DNA from: an uncultured Nitrospirales bacterium | GTDB lineage: Bacteria; Nitrospirota; Nitrospiria; Nitrospirales; UBA8639 | Direction of reading: 5' to 3' | DNA: 64,000 nt | Assembly (NCBI GenBank): GCA_958295805.1 | Contig: OY282373.1 | Span: 1,521,001-1,585,000, forward strand | Part shown: one piece after another, positions 26,751 to 62,851 of the stretch | Layout of the letters: every line of letters starts with the position of its first letter | Numbering within the stretch: position 1 is the first letter of the stretch | Notes under the pieces: generated by a model | The model's input: the letters and a program-made list of their open reading frames with translations, nothing else | Told to the model about the DNA's origin: nothing | The model's database searches: none | Made by a program: the position numbers and the translations under genes

Positions 26751-27023
26751 TCAGGGGAGAAACAATGGGGTCTTTTGTTCTTCCTGGTCGGTTTTTTCGC
26801 CGGTTGAAGTCCCGCAGTAGGAACATACATATTCGTATTTGTTTCCGGCGGGAAGGACCAGTAAGAGCCGTTCACGAGCAGGGGTGGCCTCTTTGCAGGT
26901 CGGACAGAACAGCAGCGTGGCATTGAGTGAACGAAATTGGGTGGGTGCAGCTTGTCTTGGCGCGGGTTGCATGCCCGGTGGCGTGGACCCGAAGGCACGG
27001 GTATCAAACGGAAATCGCGGCAT
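26751..27023 (-). CDS. Small zinc-ribbon protein
   Basis: 90 aa from the ATG at 27023. Two Cys pairs, CPTC (LLFCPTCKEATPARERLLL) and CSYC (KYEYVCSYCGTSTG), are separated by about 27 residues and form a likely zinc ribbon. The N-terminal 30 residues are Pro/Arg-rich and disordered. No catalytic domain. Its upstream region (27015-27181) is one copy of a diverged repeat whose other copy lies at 29724-29885, so the start codon itself sits at the edge of a duplicated segment. Confidence 0.65.
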   Translation of the reverse strand: MPRFPFDTRAFGSTPPGMQPAPRQAAPTQFRSLNATLLFCPTCKEATPARERLLLVLPAGNKYEYVCSYCGTSTGEKTDQEEQKTPLFLP

Positions 27024-27181
27024 GAAGCGATCTTACCCAGAGGTAGCCCATGGGTCAAGGTTTCTCCTTGCCGTCACACGCCGTCATTCCTGTAAACGTT
27101 CAGTCATTCGCTGATGGAATCCGAGGATTCCACCCTTTCTTCTGAAGTCAAAAGCTTGAGAGCCAATCCCTAAAACGTCAC
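27015..27181 (+). repeat. Diverged direct repeat flanking module A, right copy
   Basis: Aligns with 29724-29885 over its whole length, at very roughly three-quarters identity by eye. Shared words are TCGCGGCATGAAG, CCATGGGTCAAGGTTTC, TCAGTCATTCG followed by GATGGAAT, and CACCCTTTCT. The two copies bracket the unit formed by the oxygenase remnant, an acyltransferase and a sulfotransferase. Confidence 0.75.
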
Positions 27182-28397: not shown

Positions 28398-29534
28398 TCA
28401 ATGTACCGGGCGCGGGCCGTTCAGCATTCTCCCGATGACGGTATAGCGGACGCTGTATTGATACATCACCAGAAGGATACAGGGAACGCCCAGGCAGATC
28501 AAAAGAAATTTCAGATGAACGCTGATGGGCCAATCCGCGATCAGCAAATGCCCGGCGATGATCAGGGGCAAGTGCCCCAGATAGACCCAGTAGGAGGCAT
28601 CGGACATGTAACGCATCCAGAACTGGTCCCTCGACGCAATCCAGTGGAACAGCCCCATCAACCCGAAGCACATCAGCCAGGAATACGCGGCTTGCAACAC
28701 TGCCGCAGTGCTCTTCACCCACGTCGCCGCCGCATCCAAGCCGAAGGTTTCGGGATAGGAGAAGGCCAAGCCCGGCGGAAAAATCAACAATCCCGGCAGC
28801 ACGGCAGCGGCCCACCACCGGCGTATAGGGACCGTGCGCTGGTAGAAGAACGCTCCGAACAGGAAGAAGGTACAGTAATAGCCAGCGATAACGGGGTCGG
28901 GCATCACGGTCAAGGGGGTATCGGCGCCGAAGGTGTTCCGCATGAAATACTGAGGCACGAGAGTCAGCGGAATGACCAGCCACCAAAGGGCATGGCGGAA
29001 TTGCCCGCCCAGCCTGACAATAATGATGAAGACCGAGGCCATCAGCAACAGATACTGGAGAAACCAGAGATGATAAAAACCGCCCATCCAGGCTAATGGC
29101 GGCCAGGTAATCGCAGCGCAATAGCCGGCGATTTTCTCTCCGGTATGATTGGCAGCAAAGGTGCTCATCCAGTGGGTGGCCGGAATGATGGTGAGCATAC
29201 TGACCAGCAAGGGCAGGCCAATGCGCTTGAGGCGGTGCTTGCCCAATGCTTGCAGCCCCCGCCGCTGCCACAACATTGCGGTGAATAATCCACTGAGCAT
29301 GAAGAACACCGGCATCCGAAACCCATGAATGGCCGTAAAGAGGTAAGCGTAAGGATTGGCGTCTATGGCGGTGGCGTCTGCATATTCAAGCTGCACGGGC
29401 CAACAGTCGTAGGGTAACAGAAAAATGGTCGCGTGCAGCAATATGCCCAGAAACATGACAAACGCTCGCAGCACGTCCAGGTCATGGAATCTGGTCGGGG
29501 CGCGTACATTCTGTTCTTGGGAAATCGTTGCCAC
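28398..29534 (-). CDS. Acyltransferase-3 family membrane protein, module A copy 2
   Basis: 378 aa with about ten membrane segments. The N-terminus RFHDLDVLRAFVMFLGILLHA contains the conserved Arg and His of acyltransferase-3 enzymes, and MPVFFMLSGLFTAMLWQRRG is the second conserved region. The family O-acylates sugars, lipids or natural products at the cytoplasmic membrane (OafA, OpgC and relatives). GTG start, as in its paralogue at 29906-31066; the two are clearly homologous end to end (the first 20 residues are identical). It lies 31 bp after the stop of the oxygenase remnant, reproducing the order oxygenase-acyltransferase of the intact pair. Confidence 0.87.
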   Translation of the reverse strand: MATISQEQNVRAPTRFHDLDVLRAFVMFLGILLHATIFLLPYDCWPVQLEYADATAIDANPYAYLFTAIHGFRMPVFFMLSGLFTAMLWQRRGLQALGKHRLKRIGLPLLVSMLTIIPATHWMSTFAANHTGEKIAGYCAAITWPPLAWMGGFYHLWFLQYLLLMASVFIIIVRLGGQFRHALWWLVIPLTLVPQYFMRNTFGADTPLTVMPDPVIAGYYCTFFLFGAFFYQRTVPIRRWWAAAVLPGLLIFPPGLAFSYPETFGLDAAATWVKSTAAVLQAAYSWLMCFGLMGLFHWIASRDQFWMRYMSDASYWVYLGHLPLIIAGHLLIADWPISVHLKFLLICLGVPCILLVMYQYSVRYTVIGRMLNGPRPVH

Positions 29535-29564
29535 GTGGATTTGGCTACCCCCCCTCCACCCCCC

Positions 29565-29724
29565 CTACCATGGGCTTGTCCTGTCTGCAGCAATGTGATC
29601 GGGCAAGCGGTAGCTGATGTCCATGTGATCCATCAGGGAGCGTTCCAGTAGTATGTTTGACGTAGTTGGCCGCCACGCCTGCATTATCGATCCGAGCCTT
29701 TTCGTATCCAGCTTGATAGACGGT
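29565..29724 (-). pseudogene. Deletion remnant of a DUF2236 (MpaB-like) oxygenase gene
   Basis: The 5' part (TVYQAGYEKAR, then DNAGVAANYVKHT) and the 3' part (MDH-like, SYRLPDHI-like, ending in a TAG) match the first and last segments of the intact gene at 31084-32268 almost base for base, but are joined directly near 29650. About 1.0 kb of the 1158-bp homologous stretch is missing, and the 3' part is now out of frame. It has no start of its own; the 5' side is fused to the duplicated leader segment. It cannot encode a functional protein. Confidence 0.85.
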
Positions 29725-29885
29725 CGCGGCATGAAGTGATCCTAGTGACGGGTACTCCATGGGTCAAGGTTTCCCATGCCACCACCATTTGTCATTCTTA
29801 TAAAGTCAGTCATTCGCCGATGGAATCAGAGGATGCTCACCCTTTCTGCCGGATCCCAAAAGCCTGAGAGCTTCTTAACCACGTC
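29724..29885 (+). repeat. Diverged direct repeat flanking module A, left copy
   Basis: Homologous to 27015-27181 in the same orientation. It separates the acyltransferase ending at 29906 from the oxygenase remnant, and the remnant's 5' end begins exactly where the repeat ends. Confidence 0.75.
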
Positions 29886-29905
29886 AGATCACGCGGTTGA
29901 CGTGG

Positions 29906-31066
29906 TTAGTTGCCGGCCGTTCCCGGGTGGATACGATAGCGCGGGCCGTTCAGCATTCTCCCGATGACGGTATAGCGGACGCCGTATTGGTACATCATCA
30001 GCAGAAAGGCGAAAACGCTCAGGCAGATCAGCAGATACTTCAGATGAGCGCTGATGGGCCAGTCCGCGGTCAGCAACTGCCCGGCGATGATCAGAGGGAC
30101 GTGTAACAGATAGATCCAGTAGGAGGCATCGGATATGTAACGCATCCAGAACCGTTCCCGCGCCGCAACCCAGCGGAACAGCCCCATCAGACCGAAGCAC
30201 ATCAGCCAGGCATACGCGGTCTGCAACATTGCCGCTACGCCGTTCACCCATATCGCCGCCGCATCCAGGCCTAAGGCTTCTTCGGGGTAGGCGAAGGCCA
30301 TGCCCGGCGGTGCAATCAACAGCCCCGGCAGCACGGCAACGGTCCACCACCGGCGTACCTGAATATTGCGCTGGTAGAAGAAGACTCCGAACAGGAAGAA
30401 GAGACTGTAATACGCGAACACGAATGGGTCGGGCAGCACCTCGGTGGGCACGTCGGCGCCGAAGGTGCCCCGCATGAAATAGTGGGGCACCAGAGTCAGC
30501 GGAATGACCAGCCACCACAGGGAATGGCGGAACTGCAGGCCCAGCTTGGCGATGATGGTGAACGCGGCCGCTATCAGCAGCAGGTACCAGAGAAACCAGA
30601 GGTGAAAGAAGCCACCTATCCAGGCCAATGGTGGCCAAGTAATGGCAATGCACGAGTCGGCGACTTCCTTCCCGGTATGGCGGGCAGCGAACGTATAAAT
30701 CCAGTTGGTGGCCGGTATGATGGTGAATAGGCTCACCAGCAGGGGCAGGCCGATCCGCTTGAGGCGGTGCATACCCAATTCTTGCAACCCCCGCCGCTGC
30801 CACAGTCTTGCGGCGAAAAAGCCACTGATGATGAAGAACACCGGCATCTGAAATCCATGAACGAACATGAGAATGTAGCCGTAAGGATTGACGGCAATGG
30901 CGGTCACGTCCGCATATTCAATCTGCACCGGCCAGCACCTGGAGGGTATCAGAGACAGAGTGGCATGCAGCAGGACGCCCAGAAACATGACAAAAACTCG
31001 CAGCCCGTCCAGGTCATGGAATCGGGTCGGGGCGCGTACATTCTGTTCTTGGGAAATCGTTGCCAC
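29906..31066 (-). CDS. Acyltransferase-3 family membrane protein, module A copy 1
   Basis: 386 aa, about ten membrane segments, GTG start at 31066. RFHDLDGLRVFVMFLGVLLHA and MPVFFIISGFFAARLWQRRG are the conserved acyltransferase-3 motifs. About three-quarters of residues appear identical to the copy at 28398-29534, including the first 20. It lies 17 bp after the stop of the intact oxygenase gene, so the pair is probably one operon. The acyl acceptor is unknown; linkage to an oxygenase and a sulfotransferase suggests a shared lipid or small-molecule substrate. Confidence 0.87.
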   Translation of the reverse strand: MATISQEQNVRAPTRFHDLDGLRVFVMFLGVLLHATLSLIPSRCWPVQIEYADVTAIAVNPYGYILMFVHGFQMPVFFIISGFFAARLWQRRGLQELGMHRLKRIGLPLLVSLFTIIPATNWIYTFAARHTGKEVADSCIAITWPPLAWIGGFFHLWFLWYLLLIAAAFTIIAKLGLQFRHSLWWLVIPLTLVPHYFMRGTFGADVPTEVLPDPFVFAYYSLFFLFGVFFYQRNIQVRRWWTVAVLPGLLIAPPGMAFAYPEEALGLDAAAIWVNGVAAMLQTAYAWLMCFGLMGLFRWVAARERFWMRYISDASYWIYLLHVPLIIAGQLLTADWPISAHLKYLLICLSVFAFLLMMYQYGVRYTVIGRMLNGPRYRIHPGTAGN

Positions 31067-43381: not shown

Positions 43382-43720
43382 TCAGTTTTTGAGTGCGGCG
43401 ATGGCTTCAGTTTGCGAAGCATGAACGGCGATGATTTTGTCGAAACCACTGATTTCGAAGACTTCGCGGATCTGGGCCGAGAGGGAACAGACCGCAAATT
43501 TGGCGTCCTTCTTCAGGAGTGATTTGGCGGTCAGCAGAATAACCCGAAGCCCCGCGCTGCTGATGTAGGAAACATGCTCAAGGTCCAGGATCATGGCATG
43601 AGTGCTCGTGTCCACCGCGGTTTCTAACTCCCTCTGGAATTCCTGTGCGTTCGTCCCGTCGATACGCCCGTCGGCCTTTGCGATCAGGACTTCGTCTTTC
43701 CACTCGATGTGAATCCCCAT
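43382..43720 (-). CDS. STAS-domain anti-anti-sigma factor
   Basis: 112 aa from the ATG at 43720, preceded by GGAGGGGAAAA; the frame runs on to 43765 without similarity. MILDLEHVSYISSAGLRVILL carries the phosphorylatable Ser (54/55) of the RsbV/SpoIIAA family. First gene of the operon STAS, RR-phosphatase, RsbW-like, histidine kinase, PP2C. Unphosphorylated STAS would titrate the RsbW-like protein. The AT-rich 43766-43890 spacer should contain divergent promoters for this operon and module B. Confidence 0.94.
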   Translation of the reverse strand: MGIHIEWKDEVLIAKADGRIDGTNAQEFQRELETAVDTSTHAMILDLEHVSYISSAGLRVILLTAKSLLKKDAKFAVCSLSAQIREVFEISGFDKIIAVHASQTEAIAALKN

Positions 43721-43867
43721 TGTTTTTCCCCTCCGAGACGGGGACACGGCATGCTCACGTATCATGTCCCCATGAATTTACCGAAAACGTCCAACAATGC
43801 TGGATCATTAGTATATTTTTTTGTCATTTTGTGCAAGAATAAAAATAAGAATTTCGTTCAGGTCGTA

Positions 43868-43896
43868 GATTGAAACAATCAGCAATCAGGAATCTC
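43868..43896 (+). repeat. 29-bp direct repeat, left flank of module B
   Basis: Starts GATTGAAACAATCAGC and ends GGAATCTC. The same 29 bases recur exactly at 47320-47348. The left copy ends two bases before the GTG of the first oxygenase gene; the pair encloses precisely the three-gene module. It contains CAATCAGCAATCAGGAATC, a run of imperfect CAATCAG words. Confidence 0.9.
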
Positions 43897-43898
43897 GC

Positions 43899-45068
43899 GT
43901 GACCATCCCTTCCGTGTATCAACCCGGATACGCCAAGGCGCGTGAAGCGAATCCGGATCTTGCTGCGAAGTACCTGGAACACACGGTCATCGGTGATCCG
44001 GTGGCCGACGACGTCGTCAACGCGTTGGCCTCATTCAATCAAACACAAGTTCATCAGTTCATCAATGCGGGCATGGAGCAGGATGCAAAGACGCTCGCGG
44101 GCGCGCCTCAGCCGTTGCGAGATTTTTTCAGTCGGATTGAGGACCCGCCCCCTTGGTTCGATCAGGCTTCCGTCCACGCCGGGTGCCGAGCCTTTCATGC
44201 GTACTCGGACCTGTTTATCCCTGCGTTTTTTGTCGTCACCCTGGAAAATGCTGCCACCCTGATCAGCAAGGCGTCCTACATGACGGGACGGGTGACGACC
44301 GGGCAAGGTCCGCGGGGAATCCGGCAAAACATCAGACATTTTATCGAAATCATGCTCCCCGGCGCCCTTGATCGTCAGGGAGAGGGTTGGAAACTGTCCG
44401 TTCGTATCCGGCTGGTACACGCGCAGATCAGACGGCTGCTTCGCGTTTCGGACGATTGGGACGAGGCCGTCTATGGCGCGCCGCTGAGTGCCGCGCACAT
44501 GGCGCTCGCGTCGGCCAATTTTTCCGCGATGATGTTGAGGCAGGCGGCGAGACTCGGGGCGCACCTGGACGACGAGGCGCGTGCCAGCTTCATGCAGATC
44601 TGGCGCTATGCGTCGTGGCTGATCGGCACGCCGGAGGCACTGCTGTTCGACGGTGACGAGGCGAAAACCGCCGAGTTCCACCGTATCGCCAGACTCTGCG
44701 AAGCACCGCCCAACCGTGAGTCAGTCGTCATCGCAAACACGTTGGTCAACGCCTTGCCCCTGATACCCGGACTGACGAACCTTGCCGCCCAACGGTCCAT
44801 GCTGACCCACACCTATCGGCTCTCCCGCGCGCTCCTCGGCGACGAATTGGCCGACCAGCTCAAGTTTCCCTGGTATCGGACCGCGGGGCTGTTGACGTGG
44901 TTACAGTGGAAGCGCCGGGCCTATCGGATCGTCCACTGGTTGGCTCCGCGCATGGCCCGCAAGTGGCGAGGGAAAAACTTCGTCTTTCTGCTTGACGCCT
45001 CAATGCTTGATGATCTCAGCTACCGGTTGCCGGATCAGTTGAAGGCGGACAAGGCGAGCCCGTGGTGA
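43899..45068 (+). CDS. DUF2236 / MpaB-like oxygenase-family protein, module B copy 1
   Basis: 389 aa, GTG start. VRIRLVHAQIRRLL (about residues 172-185), PLSAAHMALASANFSAMML and WRYASWLIGTPEALLF identify the MpaB/Lcp (DUF2236) family, whose known members are heme oxygenases acting on isoprenoid chains. It is nearly identical to the next gene, so the pair is a recent tandem duplication. About half the residues match the module A protein at 31084-32268, including the LPDQLKADKASPW end. No signal peptide; a peripheral membrane location is possible. Confidence 0.84.
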   Translation: MTIPSVYQPGYAKAREANPDLAAKYLEHTVIGDPVADDVVNALASFNQTQVHQFINAGMEQDAKTLAGAPQPLRDFFSRIEDPPPWFDQASVHAGCRAFHAYSDLFIPAFFVVTLENAATLISKASYMTGRVTTGQGPRGIRQNIRHFIEIMLPGALDRQGEGWKLSVRIRLVHAQIRRLLRVSDDWDEAVYGAPLSAAHMALASANFSAMMLRQAARLGAHLDDEARASFMQIWRYASWLIGTPEALLFDGDEAKTAEFHRIARLCEAPPNRESVVIANTLVNALPLIPGLTNLAAQRSMLTHTYRLSRALLGDELADQLKFPWYRTAGLLTWLQWKRRAYRIVHWLAPRMARKWRGKNFVFLLDASMLDDLSYRLPDQLKADKASPW

Positions 45069-45078
45069 ACTCTCCGTC

Positions 45079-46248
45079 ATGACCATCCCTTCCGTGTATC
45101 AACCCGGGTACGCCAAGGCGCGTGAAGCGAATCCGGATCTTGCGGCGAAGTACCTGGAACACACGGTCATCGGTGACCCTGTGGCCGACGACGTCATCAA
45201 CGAGTTGGCCTCATTCAATCAAACAAGAGTTCATCAGTTCATCAATGCGGGCATGGAGCAGGATGCGAAGACGCTCGCGGGCGCGCCTCAGCCGTTGCGA
45301 GATTTTTTCAGTCGGATTGAGGACCCGCCCCCTTGGTTCGATCAGGCTTCCGTCCACGCCGGGTGCCGAGCCTTTCATACGTACTCAGACCTGTTTATTC
45401 CCGCGTTCTTCGTTGTCACTCTGCAAAATGCTGCCACCCTGATCAGCAAGGCGTTCTACATGACGGGACGGGTGACGACAGGGCAAGGTCCGCGGCGAAT
45501 CCGGCAGAACACCCGGCATTTTATCGAAATCATGCTCCCCGGCGCCCTTAATCGTCAGGGAGAAGGGTGGAAACTGTCCGTCCGTATCCGGCTGGTACAC
45601 GCGCAGATCAGACGGCTGCTTCGCGTTTCGGACGATTGGGACGAGACCGTCTATGGCGTGCCGATGAGTGCCGCGCACATGGCGCTCGCGTCGGCTAATT
45701 TTTCCGCGATGATGTTGAGGCAGGCGGCGAGACTCGGGGCGCACCTGGACGACGAGGCGCGTGCCAGCTTCATGCAGATCTGGCGCTATGCGTCGTGGCT
45801 GATCGGCACGCCGGAGGCACTGCTGTTCGACGGTGACGAGGCGAAAACCGCCGAGTTATACCGGGTTGCCAGACTCTGCGAAGCGCCGCCCAACCGTGAG
45901 TCGGTCATCATCGCGAACGCGTTGGTCAACGCCTTGCCCCTGATAGCCGGACTGACGAACCCTGCCGCCCAACGGTCCATGGTGACCCACACCTATCGGG
46001 TCTCCCGCGCGCTCCTCGGCGATGATCTTGCCGACCGGCTCCAGTTTCCCCGGCAGCGGACCGCGGGGCTGTTGACGTGGTTACAGTGGAAGCGTCGGGC
46101 CTATCGGATTGCCCACCGGTTGGCTCCGCGCATGGCCCGCAAGTGGCGAGGGAAAAACTTTGTCTTTCTGCTTGACGCCTCAATGCTTGATGATCTCAGC
46201 TACCGGTTGCCGGATCAGTTGAAGGCGGACAAGGCGAGCCCGTGGTGA
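45079..46248 (+). CDS. DUF2236 / MpaB-like oxygenase-family protein, module B copy 2
   Basis: 389 aa, ATG start 10 bases after the previous stop. Same length as copy 1 with no indel visible and only scattered substitutions (for example VVNALASFNQTQ versus VINELASFNQTR, and DQLKFPWYRT versus DRLQFPRQRT). The core motif VRIRLVHAQIRRLL is intact, so both copies should be functional. The junction TGAACTCTCCGTC-A/G-TGACC is repeated before this gene and before the sulfotransferase, which shows where the duplication joined. Alternatively the copies could be diverging toward different substrates. Confidence 0.84.
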   Translation: MTIPSVYQPGYAKAREANPDLAAKYLEHTVIGDPVADDVINELASFNQTRVHQFINAGMEQDAKTLAGAPQPLRDFFSRIEDPPPWFDQASVHAGCRAFHTYSDLFIPAFFVVTLQNAATLISKAFYMTGRVTTGQGPRRIRQNTRHFIEIMLPGALNRQGEGWKLSVRIRLVHAQIRRLLRVSDDWDETVYGVPMSAAHMALASANFSAMMLRQAARLGAHLDDEARASFMQIWRYASWLIGTPEALLFDGDEAKTAELYRVARLCEAPPNRESVIIANALVNALPLIAGLTNPAAQRSMVTHTYRVSRALLGDDLADRLQFPRQRTAGLLTWLQWKRRAYRIAHRLAPRMARKWRGKNFVFLLDASMLDDLSYRLPDQLKADKASPW

Positions 46249-46258
46249 ACTCTCCGTC

Positions 46259-47287
46259 GTGACCATCCCGCCTCTTTTCATTCTGAGCACCGGCCGGTGC
46301 GGTTCGACGATGGTGTCAAACGTTCTGAACCGGCATCCGCGCGTGCTGAGCCTCTCCGAGTTCTTCAGTTTCATCGGGACGGGATCCTTCCGCCGCCGGA
46401 GCCAAACCGCGGATCGAATGTGGGATTTCTACAGCCGTCAGCAGAAGCGGACTCGTCTCATGTTGCGGGAGTCGTTTGAGGAACTGCTCTATCCGATCAA
46501 TGACCCGAGCGCCCGCTTCACGCGGCACGACGTGCCGCCCATTCTGTGTGCCACGCTCCCTCACCTCACCGATCGATATGAGTCCCTGTTTGACGAACTC
46601 GAGCCGATCGTTCGGGGACAACCGAAACAGCCGCCGGCCGACCACTTCCGACATCTCTTCACGTGGCTGTGTGAACGGTTCGGTCGGAACGTCTGGGTCG
46701 AACGTTCAGGTGGATCGCTGGTGTTCGGGGCCCGGTTGCTGCGCAAGTTTCCCGAGGCACGGGTGATCCACGTGTACCGCGACGGGCGGGAGACGGCCAT
46801 CTCAATGAGCCGTCATTACCTTTTCCGGATGATCGTGGCGAACATGAAGGCCCTTCGATCATATGGAATCGACGCCATGACGTTGATGTCCGAGGGGAAA
46901 CATTGGGAAGGGATCAGCCTTTGGTTGGAGCCGTTGGTCAATGCGTTCTTCCACCCCGACCGGATACCATACGAGGACGTGACGCTTTCAGAGCTTGGGA
47001 CGTTTTGGAGCGGAATGATTGAGCGGGGACACCGACTGTTCGGGCGTTTTCCATCCGATCGCCTGCTGAACGTCAGGTTCGAGGACGTGCAGGCGGAACC
47101 GGACGCTCAGATCCGACGGCTCATCCGGTTCATTGACCCGGAACTGGAAGACGAAGCATGGCTGCACGAGGTCTCGACGATTCCACGGCCGACGCCGTCG
47201 AAGTTCAAGCAACTTGAGTCGGGCGAGCAGGCCGCGCTCACCGAGGCGTGCCGCCCGGGACTCGAACGTCTCGGCTATCCGATCTGA
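46259..47287 (+). CDS. PAPS-dependent sulfotransferase, module B
   Basis: 342 aa, GTG start. ILSTGRCGSTMVSNVLNRHP is the 5'-phosphosulfate loop and VIHVYRDGRETAISMSRHY the 3'-phosphate loop. It is a close paralogue of the module A enzyme (27263-28312), with most of the sequence alignable without gaps. It lies 10 bp after the second oxygenase gene; the start region GTGACCATCCC matches the start of the oxygenase genes at DNA level, so the leader was carried along in the duplication. Sulfation of the oxygenase product is the simplest joint role (inference). Confidence 0.88.
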   Translation: MTIPPLFILSTGRCGSTMVSNVLNRHPRVLSLSEFFSFIGTGSFRRRSQTADRMWDFYSRQQKRTRLMLRESFEELLYPINDPSARFTRHDVPPILCATLPHLTDRYESLFDELEPIVRGQPKQPPADHFRHLFTWLCERFGRNVWVERSGGSLVFGARLLRKFPEARVIHVYRDGRETAISMSRHYLFRMIVANMKALRSYGIDAMTLMSEGKHWEGISLWLEPLVNAFFHPDRIPYEDVTLSELGTFWSGMIERGHRLFGRFPSDRLLNVRFEDVQAEPDAQIRRLIRFIDPELEDEAWLHEVSTIPRPTPSKFKQLESGEQAALTEACRPGLERLGYPI

Positions 47288-47319
47288 AACCGGTCATGGA
47301 TTTCAGATTGAGGATTGTG

Positions 47320-47348
47320 GATTGAAACAATCAGCAATCAGGAATCTC
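47320..47348 (+). repeat. 29-bp direct repeat, right flank of module B
   Basis: Exact copy of 43868-43896, 33 bp after the sulfotransferase stop. Preceding GATTGTGGATTG pairs with CAATCAGCAATC inside the repeat, so this copy could also fold as an AT-rich hairpin. Confidence 0.9.
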
Positions 47349-47404: not shown

Positions 47405-48445
47405 TCAGGAATAGCGATAGGGCCGCCCGGCCTTTTCCATCGTTGCGTGGTACTCCTTCAATATCTCGATAACCCGGGCCGCCCGCGGGCTGGTTTGGGC
47501 GATCTCGTCCCAGAACTTGAGTGCTTCGTCTTCTACCAGTTTCCATTCTTCGTCGGGGATGGACGTGAGCGTCAGTTTCGTGCCCGTGGTGCGCAGGTGC
47601 GCTTCGCCGCCCCAGTACCAGTACTGGCGGTAATAGTGCGAACTCTCCACGCAGACGCGAAACAGCTCCCGCAACCGTCCGGGCAGAGCGTTCCACGAAT
47701 CGGTATTGGCAAAGAACGAACCGCACCACGCACCGGAGATGTTGTTGGTCAGGAAATAATTGGTCACGTCCGCCCAACCGACGGTGTAATCCTCGGTGAT
47801 GCCCGACCAGGCGAGGCCGTCCAATTTGCCGGTCCGGACCGCGTCCTTGACGTCTGCCCACGGCAGGGTGACCGGCACCACGCCGAAACGGGACAGGAAT
47901 TTGCCCGCGGTCGGAAAGGTGAACACGCGCTTGCCCTTGAGATCGTCGAGGCTGCGGATGGGATCAACCGTGTTGAAGTGACAAGGATCCCACGCGCCCG
48001 CGCTCAGCCACGTCACGCCGTCGATTTCACGATAGGCTTCTTCCCAGATTTCCTTCAGGCCGTACTGGTTGAACAGCACCGGCACGTCGAGACTATAACG
48101 CGTGGCGAACGGGAAGTAGCCGCCGAAGACCGAAACGTCGGCGGGCGACGCCATCGAGTCATCGTCGCTCTGGATTGCGTCGACCACGCCCTTCTGCATC
48201 GCACGGAACAGCTCGGACGTTGGCACAAGCTGGTCCGCCGTGTACAGATCGATAATCATTTCGCCGTTGGCGATCTTGTTGAACGAGTCAACCGCCGGCT
48301 TCACCACGTGCTCCGCCAGCGTGCCGCCGGCATAGGTTTGCAATCGCCACCGGATGGGGGACTTGGATTGTACGATCACCGCCGGTGGGGTAACTACGGC
48401 CGCGGCGGCGATGCCGGCTTTTTTCAGAAAATCGCGTCTGTTCAT
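47405..48445 (-). CDS. TRAP-transporter solute-binding protein (DctP type), orphan
   Basis: 346 aa from the ATG at 48445 (AAGGAG 7 bases upstream). A Tat signal NRRDFLKKAGIAAAAVV precedes a DctP-family binding protein: GGTLAEHVVKPAVDSFNKIANGEMIIDLY, the conserved Arg in LKGKRVFTFPTAGKFLSRFG, and LDGLAWSGITEDYTVGWADVTNYFL. Tat-exported DctP proteins that act as dimers and bind 2-oxo acids or polyols are known (TakP/UehA-like). The DctQ and DctM membrane subunits are not adjacent, so it is an orphan or uses a remote permease. Confidence 0.9.
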   Translation of the reverse strand: MNRRDFLKKAGIAAAAVVTPPAVIVQSKSPIRWRLQTYAGGTLAEHVVKPAVDSFNKIANGEMIIDLYTADQLVPTSELFRAMQKGVVDAIQSDDDSMASPADVSVFGGYFPFATRYSLDVPVLFNQYGLKEIWEEAYREIDGVTWLSAGAWDPCHFNTVDPIRSLDDLKGKRVFTFPTAGKFLSRFGVVPVTLPWADVKDAVRTGKLDGLAWSGITEDYTVGWADVTNYFLTNNISGAWCGSFFANTDSWNALPGRLRELFRVCVESSHYYRQYWYWGGEAHLRTTGTKLTLTSIPDEEWKLVEDEALKFWDEIAQTSPRAARVIEILKEYHATMEKAGRPYRYS

Positions 48446-48649
48446 GGTACTCTCCTTTTCCCGTGAGGGATTTTTCCGCAATCATGCCAAGTTGAGATCG
48501 CAGAGTCGAGCCGCCGTCACTCTTGACGAGACCTTTGCGAAATCGTCATTCTCAAAAGTTGCATCGATCTGGATCGGTTCCATCGGTTGAACGTTTCGTT
48601 GATGGAACATTTATGGGCACGTCATAAGAATAAGGGGATTGACGCGAGC

Positions 48650-57480: not shown

Positions 57481-57555
57481 TGGAGCTGGCGAGAGGAATC
57501 GAACCTCCAACCAGCGGTTTACAAAACCGCTGCTCTGCCATTGAGCTACGCCAGC
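57481..57555 (-). tRNA. tRNA-Thr (anticodon TGT)
   Basis: 75 bases on the minus strand, ending in an encoded CCA (57481-57483). The acceptor stem GCTGGCG pairs with the 3' CGCCAGC, the anticodon stem GCGGT/ACCGC holds loop TTTGTAA with anticodon TGT (plus-strand ACA at 57521-57523), and the T arm has GGTTCGATTCC. It reads ACA threonine codons. Confidence 0.95.
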
Positions 57556-57740: not shown

Positions 57741-58412
57741 TCAGTCAAGCAGCTTTATCAGTGCGACCGTCAGGCCGACAATGCTGACGGCCATGATCCA
57801 TAAGTGGCGGTACAACCGGGCTTCCAGGTCGGCAAGGTTAGCTTGGCTTTCGGCACGACCCGCCTTCAACTCCGCCCTGAACTCAGCACGATCCGCCTTC
57901 AACTCCGCCCTGAACTCAGCACGATCCGCCTTCAACTCCGCCCAGATATCAGCACGATCCGCCTTCAACTCAGCCCCGACCCCAGCAATATCGGCCTTCA
58001 CCTCGGCCAATTCCGTCCGTACTTCGGTAATATCGGCCTTCACCTCGTTCAGTTCCGTCCGCACTTCGGCAATATCGGCTTTCAACTCGGCCTTCACCTC
58101 GGCCAATTCCGTCCGTACTTCGGCAATGTCGGCTTTCAACTCGGCCTTCACCTCGGCCAATTCCGTCCGCACTTCGGCAATGTCGGCTTTCAACTCGGCC
58201 TTCACTCCGGCCAATTCCGTCCGCACTTCAGTAACGTCGGCCTTCACTCCGGCCAGTTCCGTCCGCACTTCGGTCATGTCGGCCTTTGTTGCCATGTTCT
58301 CACCCATGGCCGCGCCAACGGTCTCAACCACGGCTTCAGCCAAGTGTTCGTTTGCCCCGGCTTCTTGGAGAGCCTTGACGGCTTTGTGCGTATCAAAGGC
58401 AAGCATAGTCAT
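57741..58412 (-). CDS. DUF1640-like coiled-coil protein with expanded repeats
   Basis: 223 aa from the ATG at 58412. The start MLAFDTHKAVKALQEAGANEHLAEA matches the DUF1640 (CCDC90-like) N-terminus. The middle is a tandem coiled-coil made of near-identical 18-residue units (AEVRTELAEVKAELKADI, 54 bp each) grading into 7- to 11-residue units (KADRAEFRAEL). A C-terminal membrane anchor (HLWIMAVSIVGLTVALIKLL) ends it. The repeats mean the length probably varies between strains. Family function in bacteria is unknown; long reverse-strand frames here are repeat shadows. Confidence 0.82.
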   Translation of the reverse strand: MTMLAFDTHKAVKALQEAGANEHLAEAVVETVGAAMGENMATKADMTEVRTELAGVKADVTEVRTELAGVKAELKADIAEVRTELAEVKAELKADIAEVRTELAEVKAELKADIAEVRTELNEVKADITEVRTELAEVKADIAGVGAELKADRADIWAELKADRAEFRAELKADRAEFRAELKAGRAESQANLADLEARLYRHLWIMAVSIVGLTVALIKLLD

Positions 58413-60778: not shown

Positions 60779-62851
60779 ATGTCTCACAACGTGACAGTGA
60801 ACACCCTGGTCGCCCTGGCCTGTGCCTTGACCCTGGCAGGATGCAGCATCCCAGGGAAGATTTTAGAAACCTTCGATATCGAAAGAGACATCATCGTCAA
60901 GAGGGATGCGAGTCAGAGCGTCATCATCAATCACAAACCGAACTGGATGACTCGGCCGGGAACGGTAACGCCGGAACGCGTCGTCTGTACCGAGCCAAGC
61001 CCGGACGTGGCAACCGTTCTTGCAAGGTCCATTACTGCTAAAGTTGCTGCAGGCGAGGACAGTGCAGAGTATGCTGCCTCGTCGTCGCAGGGGCTGGTGC
61101 AACTGGCGGAACGCACGGTGGCCGTGCAGGTGCTGCGCGAACGCATGTTCCGCGCCTGCGAGTCCTATGCCAACGGGGCCATCACGGGCACCACCTATAC
61201 GCTTCTCATGAACCGGTTCGACCGGGCCATGGTGACGGTCCTGTTCGGCGAAGTGATGGGCGGTGCCTTTGGCCGCAGCCTGGCCGCAATCGGCACCACC
61301 ACCCAAGCGGCCGAAAGACTGGTGGAATTGGACAAAGAACTCAAGGACGCCAAGAAGGCGCTTAAGGAGGCAAGGAGGAAGCCTGAGCCCGATCAGACGA
61401 TCAAGGAGTTGGAGGATGCGGTTACCGAAGCCAAGGCCAAACGAGACTTCGCGGATGAATCCTTCCACACCCACGTAGCCGCCGCTGCCGGCCCCATCGA
61501 GACCAAGGCTGGTCCAGAAACACACGGCTACATGAAAGACGTCTTCAAGGACTTCGTGGAAAGCAATCCAGTGGACGACTACATCGCCGCCTGTGTGGTT
61601 GAAATGGAGCGGGGTCTGGCCGGCAACGACCGCCCCTTCGGTCGCTACAGGGAACAGGTAATCAGCAAGTTAATAGAGCCCCCTTCTAACCGGTTTTCTC
61701 GCTGGGTTTTGGGAACCCTTGAATTATTTAACATTTATACGGACGTTTTGACCACGGAAAGAGAACGAACCCTTGCAGCAATTGAGGGGCTTGATCGGCG
61801 GTCCGCCTTGTTTGAGCATTGTAAGGAGAATCTCACTACTCTGTTGGAACAGCGGGAGTGGACATTCGTGTCCCTCAAGAGGGACGAGATGGAGCTCAAG
61901 AGGGCCGAGTTGAGGGTCCGCGAACAGGAGATACTTACCGCGGCGATGACACAGTGCAACAAGATCAAGGAGCCGTGCAACATCTGTAGTCCACCGTGCA
62001 ACGAGTGCCAGGAGCCGTGCGACCCCTGTAGTCCACCGTGCAACAAGTGCCAGGGGCCGTGCGACCCCTGTAGTCCACCGTGCAACGAGTGCCAGGGGCC
62101 GTGCGACCCCTGTAGTCCACCGTGCAACGAGTGCCAGGAGCCGTGCGACCCCTGTAGTCCACCGTGCAACGAGTGCCAGGGGCCGTGCGACCCCTGTAGT
62201 CCACCGTGCAACAAGTGCAAGGAGACATTGGCCGAAACCTGTATGAAGAAGGTTATCAAGAAGTTTAATGGGCCGTATGAACCTGACACGAATTACCAAT
62301 GGCGGCCCTTTCTCGGCTGCGGCAGCAAAGAGACTCTCCCTACGTTCGCGTTTGATCGGTTCAAACCCAAGATCGAAGAAGCGATCAAAAAACAGGAGAA
62401 AGCCAGGAGGGAATTGAATGCTCTCGTCTTGCAGGAAATCACAGAGGATTGTAACTGTGAAAAAGAAAAGAAAAACCAAAATATCCGTGCGCTAAATGAA
62501 AAAAAGAAAACCTTGATCAGCAAATCCAATGACCTAATTGAACAGGCAGAAAACAAGATGAACGAGGAGACGCGCAATGAACTCGAAACCCTTGAGACTG
62601 ACAGCACGCGCTTCCAGGATAAACTGCAAACGGCGAAGGCTGATCATGAGAGAGAATTTTACCAACTGGAATTGCGGCGCCAGTGTATTAAGGCGAAAAA
62701 AGAATCCAAAGAGTACGAAGCACTCTTAACGAAAATTAAAACCGAGACCGAGAAGTTGAAGCTCCACAGCAAGAAAATGGAGAAGGAGGGTGCCACAGTG
62801 GAGGAGGCAGGTGCCACCAAAATAGAACACGCAGGAGTGAGCAATGGCTGA
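60779..62851 (+). CDS. Large lipoprotein with coiled coils and a Cys/Pro repeat domain
   Basis: 690 aa from the ATG at 60779. A lipoprotein signal ends [12 protein letters not shown]. The N-terminal 300 residues are helical (with [19 protein letters not shown]-type coiled coil near 190-230). At about residues 398-481 lies a domain of six 14-residue units, (E/G)PC(D/N)xCSPPCN(E/K)C(Q/K), with four Cys each. A lysine/glutamate-rich coiled coil fills 530-690. No family recognised. It may be a surface-tethered rod with a rigid, disulfide- or metal-rich hinge; function unknown. Confidence 0.72.
61970..62221 (+). repeat. Six in-frame 42-bp tandem units (Cys/Pro-rich)
   Basis: Units begin at 61970, 62012, 62054, 62096, 62138 and 62180, each starting G(A/G)GCCGTGC and containing TGTAGTCCACCGTGCAAC. 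Units 2-6 are almost identical; unit 1 is the most diverged. All keep the reading frame of the surrounding lipoprotein. Confidence 0.93.

Follow-up and report, generated by a model that had tools for sequence, protein, structure and literature searches.

Identical 29-nt repeats around an oxygenase-sulfotransferase block in a Nitrospirales genome belong to a genus-wide family of heptamer arrays

Two identical 29-nt sequences enclose a block of three genes (module B) in the window, the 64,000-nt stretch of DNA from an uncultured Nitrospirales bacterium that was analysed here. They are members of a dispersed, genus-wide family of intergenic heptamer arrays, and the paired 29-mers alone do not show that the block between them has moved. 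As members of this family, the 29-mers probably came to their places by spread or copying of arrays between gene spacers, rather than by movement of the enclosed genes.

The copies lie on the forward strand at 43868-43896 and 47320-47348, and are identical at 29 of 29 bases, exactly as an earlier note on this DNA had reported. The match between them lengthens to 32 nt with one mismatch (starts at 43865 and 47317). A window of such composition is expected to hold about 1e-8 exact direct pairs of 29 nt, and the observed pair is thus far above chance. The earlier note also proposed a search for further copies, a large number of which would have marked the 29-mer as a common dispersed repeat. When up to three mismatches are allowed, the 29-mer occurs at only two places in its own genome (2,904,372 bases in one contig), both at this locus, and the same search of the other 47 of the 48 family genomes gave no match. 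Copy 1 stands just outside the first oxygenase gene, as described before, ending 2 nt ahead of its GTG start codon (43899). It carries an AGGA 7 nt before the GTG, which might, as a guess, be a Shine-Dalgarno-like element. The gap between the sulfotransferase stop codon and copy 2 measures 32 nt, rather than the 33 bp given previously.

The three enclosed genes are those that had been recognised earlier, and all are on the forward strand: two oxygenases of the MPAB_Lcp_cat family (PF09995) at 43899-45068 and 45079-46248, with 94.7% nucleotide and 93% amino acid identity, and a Sulfotransfer_3 protein (PF13469) at 46259-47287. Both neighbours are encoded on the reverse strand, a STAS-domain protein on the left (43382-43765) and a TRAP-type solute-binding protein, DctP, on the right (47405-48481). 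Among the other 13 genomes of the genus, none has a relative of the latter. None of the three genes encodes a transposase, the flanks of module B contain no inverted pair above background (score 12) that could serve as terminal inverted repeats, and the only tRNA gene in the window, a tRNA-Thr at 57481, is not near the block. A STAS gene (40% identity) also lies beside a related oxygenase on a Gemmatimonadetes contig (L124, 410-2351; compare 43382-45068 here). Elsewhere in the window, at 57817-58290 and 61908-62243, reading frames contain in-phase runs of 33-, 42- and 54-nt repeats.

The earlier note considered amplification of the block by recombination at the 29-mers. This does not apply to the oxygenase pair; the 29-mer was rejected as the cause of the duplication because none lies between the two oxygenase genes and because a shorter microhomology accounts for the junction. 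The start of oxygenase 1 (43899-43909, forward strand) reads GTGACCATCCC, and the identical 11 nt, GTGACCATCCC, are found at the start of the sulfotransferase gene (46259-46269, forward strand), while oxygenase 2 begins with ATGACCATCCC (45079-45089). The same spacer precedes oxygenase 2 and the sulfotransferase. Judging from the sequence, oxygenase 2 is best explained as a tandem duplication that would have arisen between the copies of GTGACCATCCC at an 11-nt microhomology.

The 29-mer is not a free-standing element; within a heptamer-array hairpin of the form (GATTGNN)n...(NNCAATC)n, it makes up the right arm together with the loop. The array that contains copy 2 is 48 nt long (47299-47346, forward strand) and occupies the spacer in which the sulfotransferase and TRAP genes converge. 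Its seven-base period is evident from the units GATTTCA, GATTGAG, GATTGTG and GATTG, the loop AAA, and then CAATCAG, CAATCAG and GAATC. The predicted RNA fold of this array (-20.3 kcal/mol, z -2.92) indicates a hairpin, which might be guessed to act in transcript ends. Copy 1 has kept the loop and the right arm, but its left side is degenerate or unrelated, and its fold is no better than that of shuffled sequences (z -0.52). A scan against RNA families gave two matches, both far under the gathering scores and neither at the 29-mers.

The family is dispersed across the genus. With one mismatch allowed, the pattern GATTGNNGATTGNNGATTG has 42 matches in the own genome, as against none for its backward control, and matches are found in 12 of the 14 genus genomes, with none for the controls. 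The 22 arrays collected in the own genome are clustered: 13 have another array within 5 kb, a number that averaged 1.5 and never exceeded 9 in 5000 random placements. The observed count is somewhat biased, since the stretches read around known clusters were longer. Ordinary genes are often bracketed by arrays, among them those for argininosuccinate synthase, a nickel-insertion protein (which we take to be larC), PdxA, an FAD-binding protein (presumably sdhA) and a thioredoxin-like protein (presumably ccmG).

Similarity between arrays is not restricted to the 29-mer locus. In the own genome (G000) the array pair at argG scores 37, as against 29 for both the 29-mer pair and a pair 956 kb apart; 29 is also the top score among non-neighbouring pairs in this genome, with 35 and 34 being the corresponding values in two relatives, G001 and G003. 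Neighbouring arrays resemble each other more than distant arrays do in G000 (p 3e-5) and in G003 (p 0.01), but G001 shows no such difference (p 0.45); the pairs in these tests are not independent. Given the result for G001, local copying of arrays is not general.

The argG locus provides the most direct comparison. Its two arrays align over 46 columns with three mismatches (one mismatch in the first 40 nt), and are therefore more alike than the 29-mer pair. The gene order around them is conserved: argF adjoins argG at all 14 loci of the genus and argH does so at 12 of them (at the remaining two the contig ends first), and yet arrays are present at this locus in only one of the 14 genomes, the own genome. 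Near-identical bracketing arrays can thus arise without the gene between them moving. Since such bracketing is demonstrated at argG, the spread of arrays can explain the 29-mer pair as well. We infer that array copying or conversion, rather than gene movement, gave rise to the pair. Heptamer arrays would have spread in the genus, seemingly by local copying between gene spacers, and one would have settled just before the oxygenase start and another just after the sulfotransferase, as around argG. Separately, an oxygenase-sulfotransferase pair was probably gained horizontally, after which the oxygenase would have been duplicated in tandem at the 11-nt microhomology. One point against array copying is the absence of any third copy of the exact 29-mer from the genomes searched. 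More generally, paired repeats should be treated with caution and are not necessarily insertion scars, given that hairpin arrays in this genus settle around genes that never moved.

The enclosed genes have a distribution of their own. A scan of genome contigs identified 23 loci with oxygenases of 46-76% identity, in most of which a sulfotransferase gene lies directly downstream. The titles of the records name Alpha- and Gammaproteobacteria, Pseudomonadales, Chloroflexota, Dehalococcoidia, Entotheonella, Binatia, Bryobacterales, Latescibacteria, Gemmatimonadetes, Longimicrobiales and Nitrospirales; the MAGs carrying such cassettes presumably come from sponge microbiomes. DNA similarity to the other loci begins at or after the oxygenase start and ends within about 5 nt of the sulfotransferase stop codon. 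Because this cross-phylum similarity covers one oxygenase and the sulfotransferase, the three genes are not one unit; what recurs across phyla is the compact gene pair. In a tree of 41 rows, a cross-phylum clade (support 100/100) contains oxygenases 1 and 2, and 11 rows of genus oxygenases form a separate clade; L039, a row from the genus, groups with Binatia (99/97). The finer branching order within the cross-phylum clade is mostly unresolved. The cassette thus appears to have spread horizontally, and the oxygenase-sulfotransferase pair at module B was probably acquired in this way. Arrays were considered as a component of the cassette and rejected, as none is present in 29 other oxygenase loci (L083-L088 and L109-L131, of which L118 and L083 are the same place). 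A survey of the literature, mostly of titles and the openings of abstracts, met no published description of the array family or the oxygenase-sulfotransferase cassette.

The direct repeats that flank the cassette differ from one locus to the next; they are present at module B and at four loci from other phyla: L111 (9629-9715 and 12299-12385), L117 (9557-9791 and 12230-12464), L122 (9659-9857 and 12265-12405) and L123 (9809-9846 and 12276-12313). The downstream copies at L111 and L123 overlap the adjacent gene at its 3' end. The genome of L122 contains no match besides the two flanking copies, and the genome of L117 no other strong match. A translated comparison of flanks gave low-complexity noise and was set aside. 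Flanking repeats were present at 5 of 19 cassettes, module B included, as against 13 of 730 control segments (one-sided Fisher p 4e-5), where the score threshold of 28 was chosen after the data had been seen and the control segments overlap and are not independent. Ten of the 13 positive control segments fall in the repeat-rich L114. The count of 19 omits L112 (a near copy of L111), L118 (the same place as L083) and module A, another cassette of the window, the boundary of which was set after its repeat had been seen; L124, L125 and L127-L130 were unscored, being short or having no adjacent same-strand sulfotransferase match of the module B type. An earlier count had given 6 of 21 cassettes and 6 of 315 controls. 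These repeats raise the prior that cassette entry leaves repeats behind, and movement of the cassette in general is a reasonable supposition. It is conceivable, but unlikely, that the gene pair is an unrecognised mobile cassette with no mobility gene of its own, which crosses phyla and leaves on either side long, locus-specific direct duplications of recipient DNA (about 30-235 nt), its landing site here being the heptamer-array hairpin.

At module A, a direct repeat of 151 columns (77% identity; 27015-27163 and 29724-29871) surrounds the distal part of the module. It includes the oxygenase leader and start region, and occurs upstream of a decayed oxygenase and again after the sulfotransferase; it resembles the leader of a cassette copy that has been lost. 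The oxygenase remnant at 29563-29726 consists of about 34 N-terminal codons fused to the last codons, the middle being gone. An in-frame 80-aa oxygenase with both ends but no middle, followed by a sulfotransferase, is also found in a relative (G006, L058, 1450-1692), and this parallel internal deletion is odd. Between its oxygenase and its sulfotransferase, module A further contains (28398-31066) a pair of related acyltransferase genes (PF01757), apparently the product of a tandem duplication.

Other origins of the 29-mer pair involve movement or loss of the genes. The left arm of the hairpin is situated next to copy 2, in the spacer that follows the sulfotransferase, and no such arm adjoins copy 1 on its outer side. 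In a simple target duplication the left arm should lie outside copy 1, with the target continuing outward from both copies, and such a duplication was therefore rejected. Insertion with a target duplication, one of the mechanisms put forward in the earlier note, thus does not fit the geometry. A transposon-like insertion of all three genes with a target-site duplication of 29-32 nt is accordingly very improbable: it would account for direct repeats near both edges of the conserved unit, but it would take a coincidence for the left arm beside copy 2 to be part of the insert, the block has no transposase, and 29-32 nt exceeds the usual length of a target duplication. The repeat at module A, which precedes a decayed oxygenase and recurs after a sulfotransferase, with the adjoining oxygenase reduced to its two ends, offers a parallel for another origin, namely a tandem duplication of a unit starting with the 29-mer and subsequent loss of the second unit except for its leader. 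This too is highly unlikely at module B, since copy 2 is more complete than copy 1 and so is not its remnant, and no trace of an oxygenase start follows copy 2.

The main rival to array spread is insertion at an array, which is possible, if doubtful. Here, a circle or fragment carrying an oxygenase, a sulfotransferase and an array would have entered by a Campbell-type crossover at a resident array, leaving a hybrid copy on each side. Such a crossover would produce the arrangement seen here, in which copy 2 alone has the left arm, and it agrees with the conserved unit ending near both 29-mer copies, as well as with the direct repeats around the cassettes at L111, L117, L122 and L123, including those at L122 and L117 that have no other matches, or no other strong ones, in their genomes. 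However, arrays bracket unmoved genes, neither the other two cassettes of the own genome nor those of relatives have arrays, and no circle or empty site is known. The earlier note had suggested comparing strains at an empty site; none was found, the 29-mer being absent from the other 47 family genomes and the TRAP gene from the 13 genus relatives. The proposal that the block moved or was inserted therefore stands only in part: the exact 29-mer is specific to the locus, the cassette is apparently horizontally spread and other loci have flanking repeats of their own, but arrays are dispersed genus-wide and also bracket housekeeping genes, and argG has not moved. Array spread is still the favoured account of the pair. 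A two-gene cassette that is present in several phyla and sometimes bracketed by repeats nonetheless offers a case for studying how metabolic gene pairs without a transposase spread.

Target-site duplication and single-crossover insertion-duplication both place direct repeats on either side of an acquired block. The strict form of the former fails on geometry at the 29-mer locus, while the latter is a possible, unproven match. The arrays themselves are comparable to two kinds of dispersed repeat. Direct repeats of the heptamer TAACTGA are intergenic and occur in Beggiatoaceae, Cyanobacteria and others (PMC4679880). They resemble the present arrays in having seven-base units, in being intergenic and often a few nucleotides upstream of start codons, and in being scattered among lineages; they differ in that the present unit, GATTGNN, has two free positions and in that forward units run into reverse-complement units to give a hairpin. 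REP and REPIN sequences (PMC3116915) are likewise dispersed extragenic inverted repeats with predicted hairpins and intragenomic spread. An inverted doublet of the REPIN kind that folds into a hairpin is present at copy 2 (z -2.92) but not at copy 1 (z -0.52). REPINs are doublets of REP sequences tied to RAYT transposases, whereas the units of the present arrays are heptamers.
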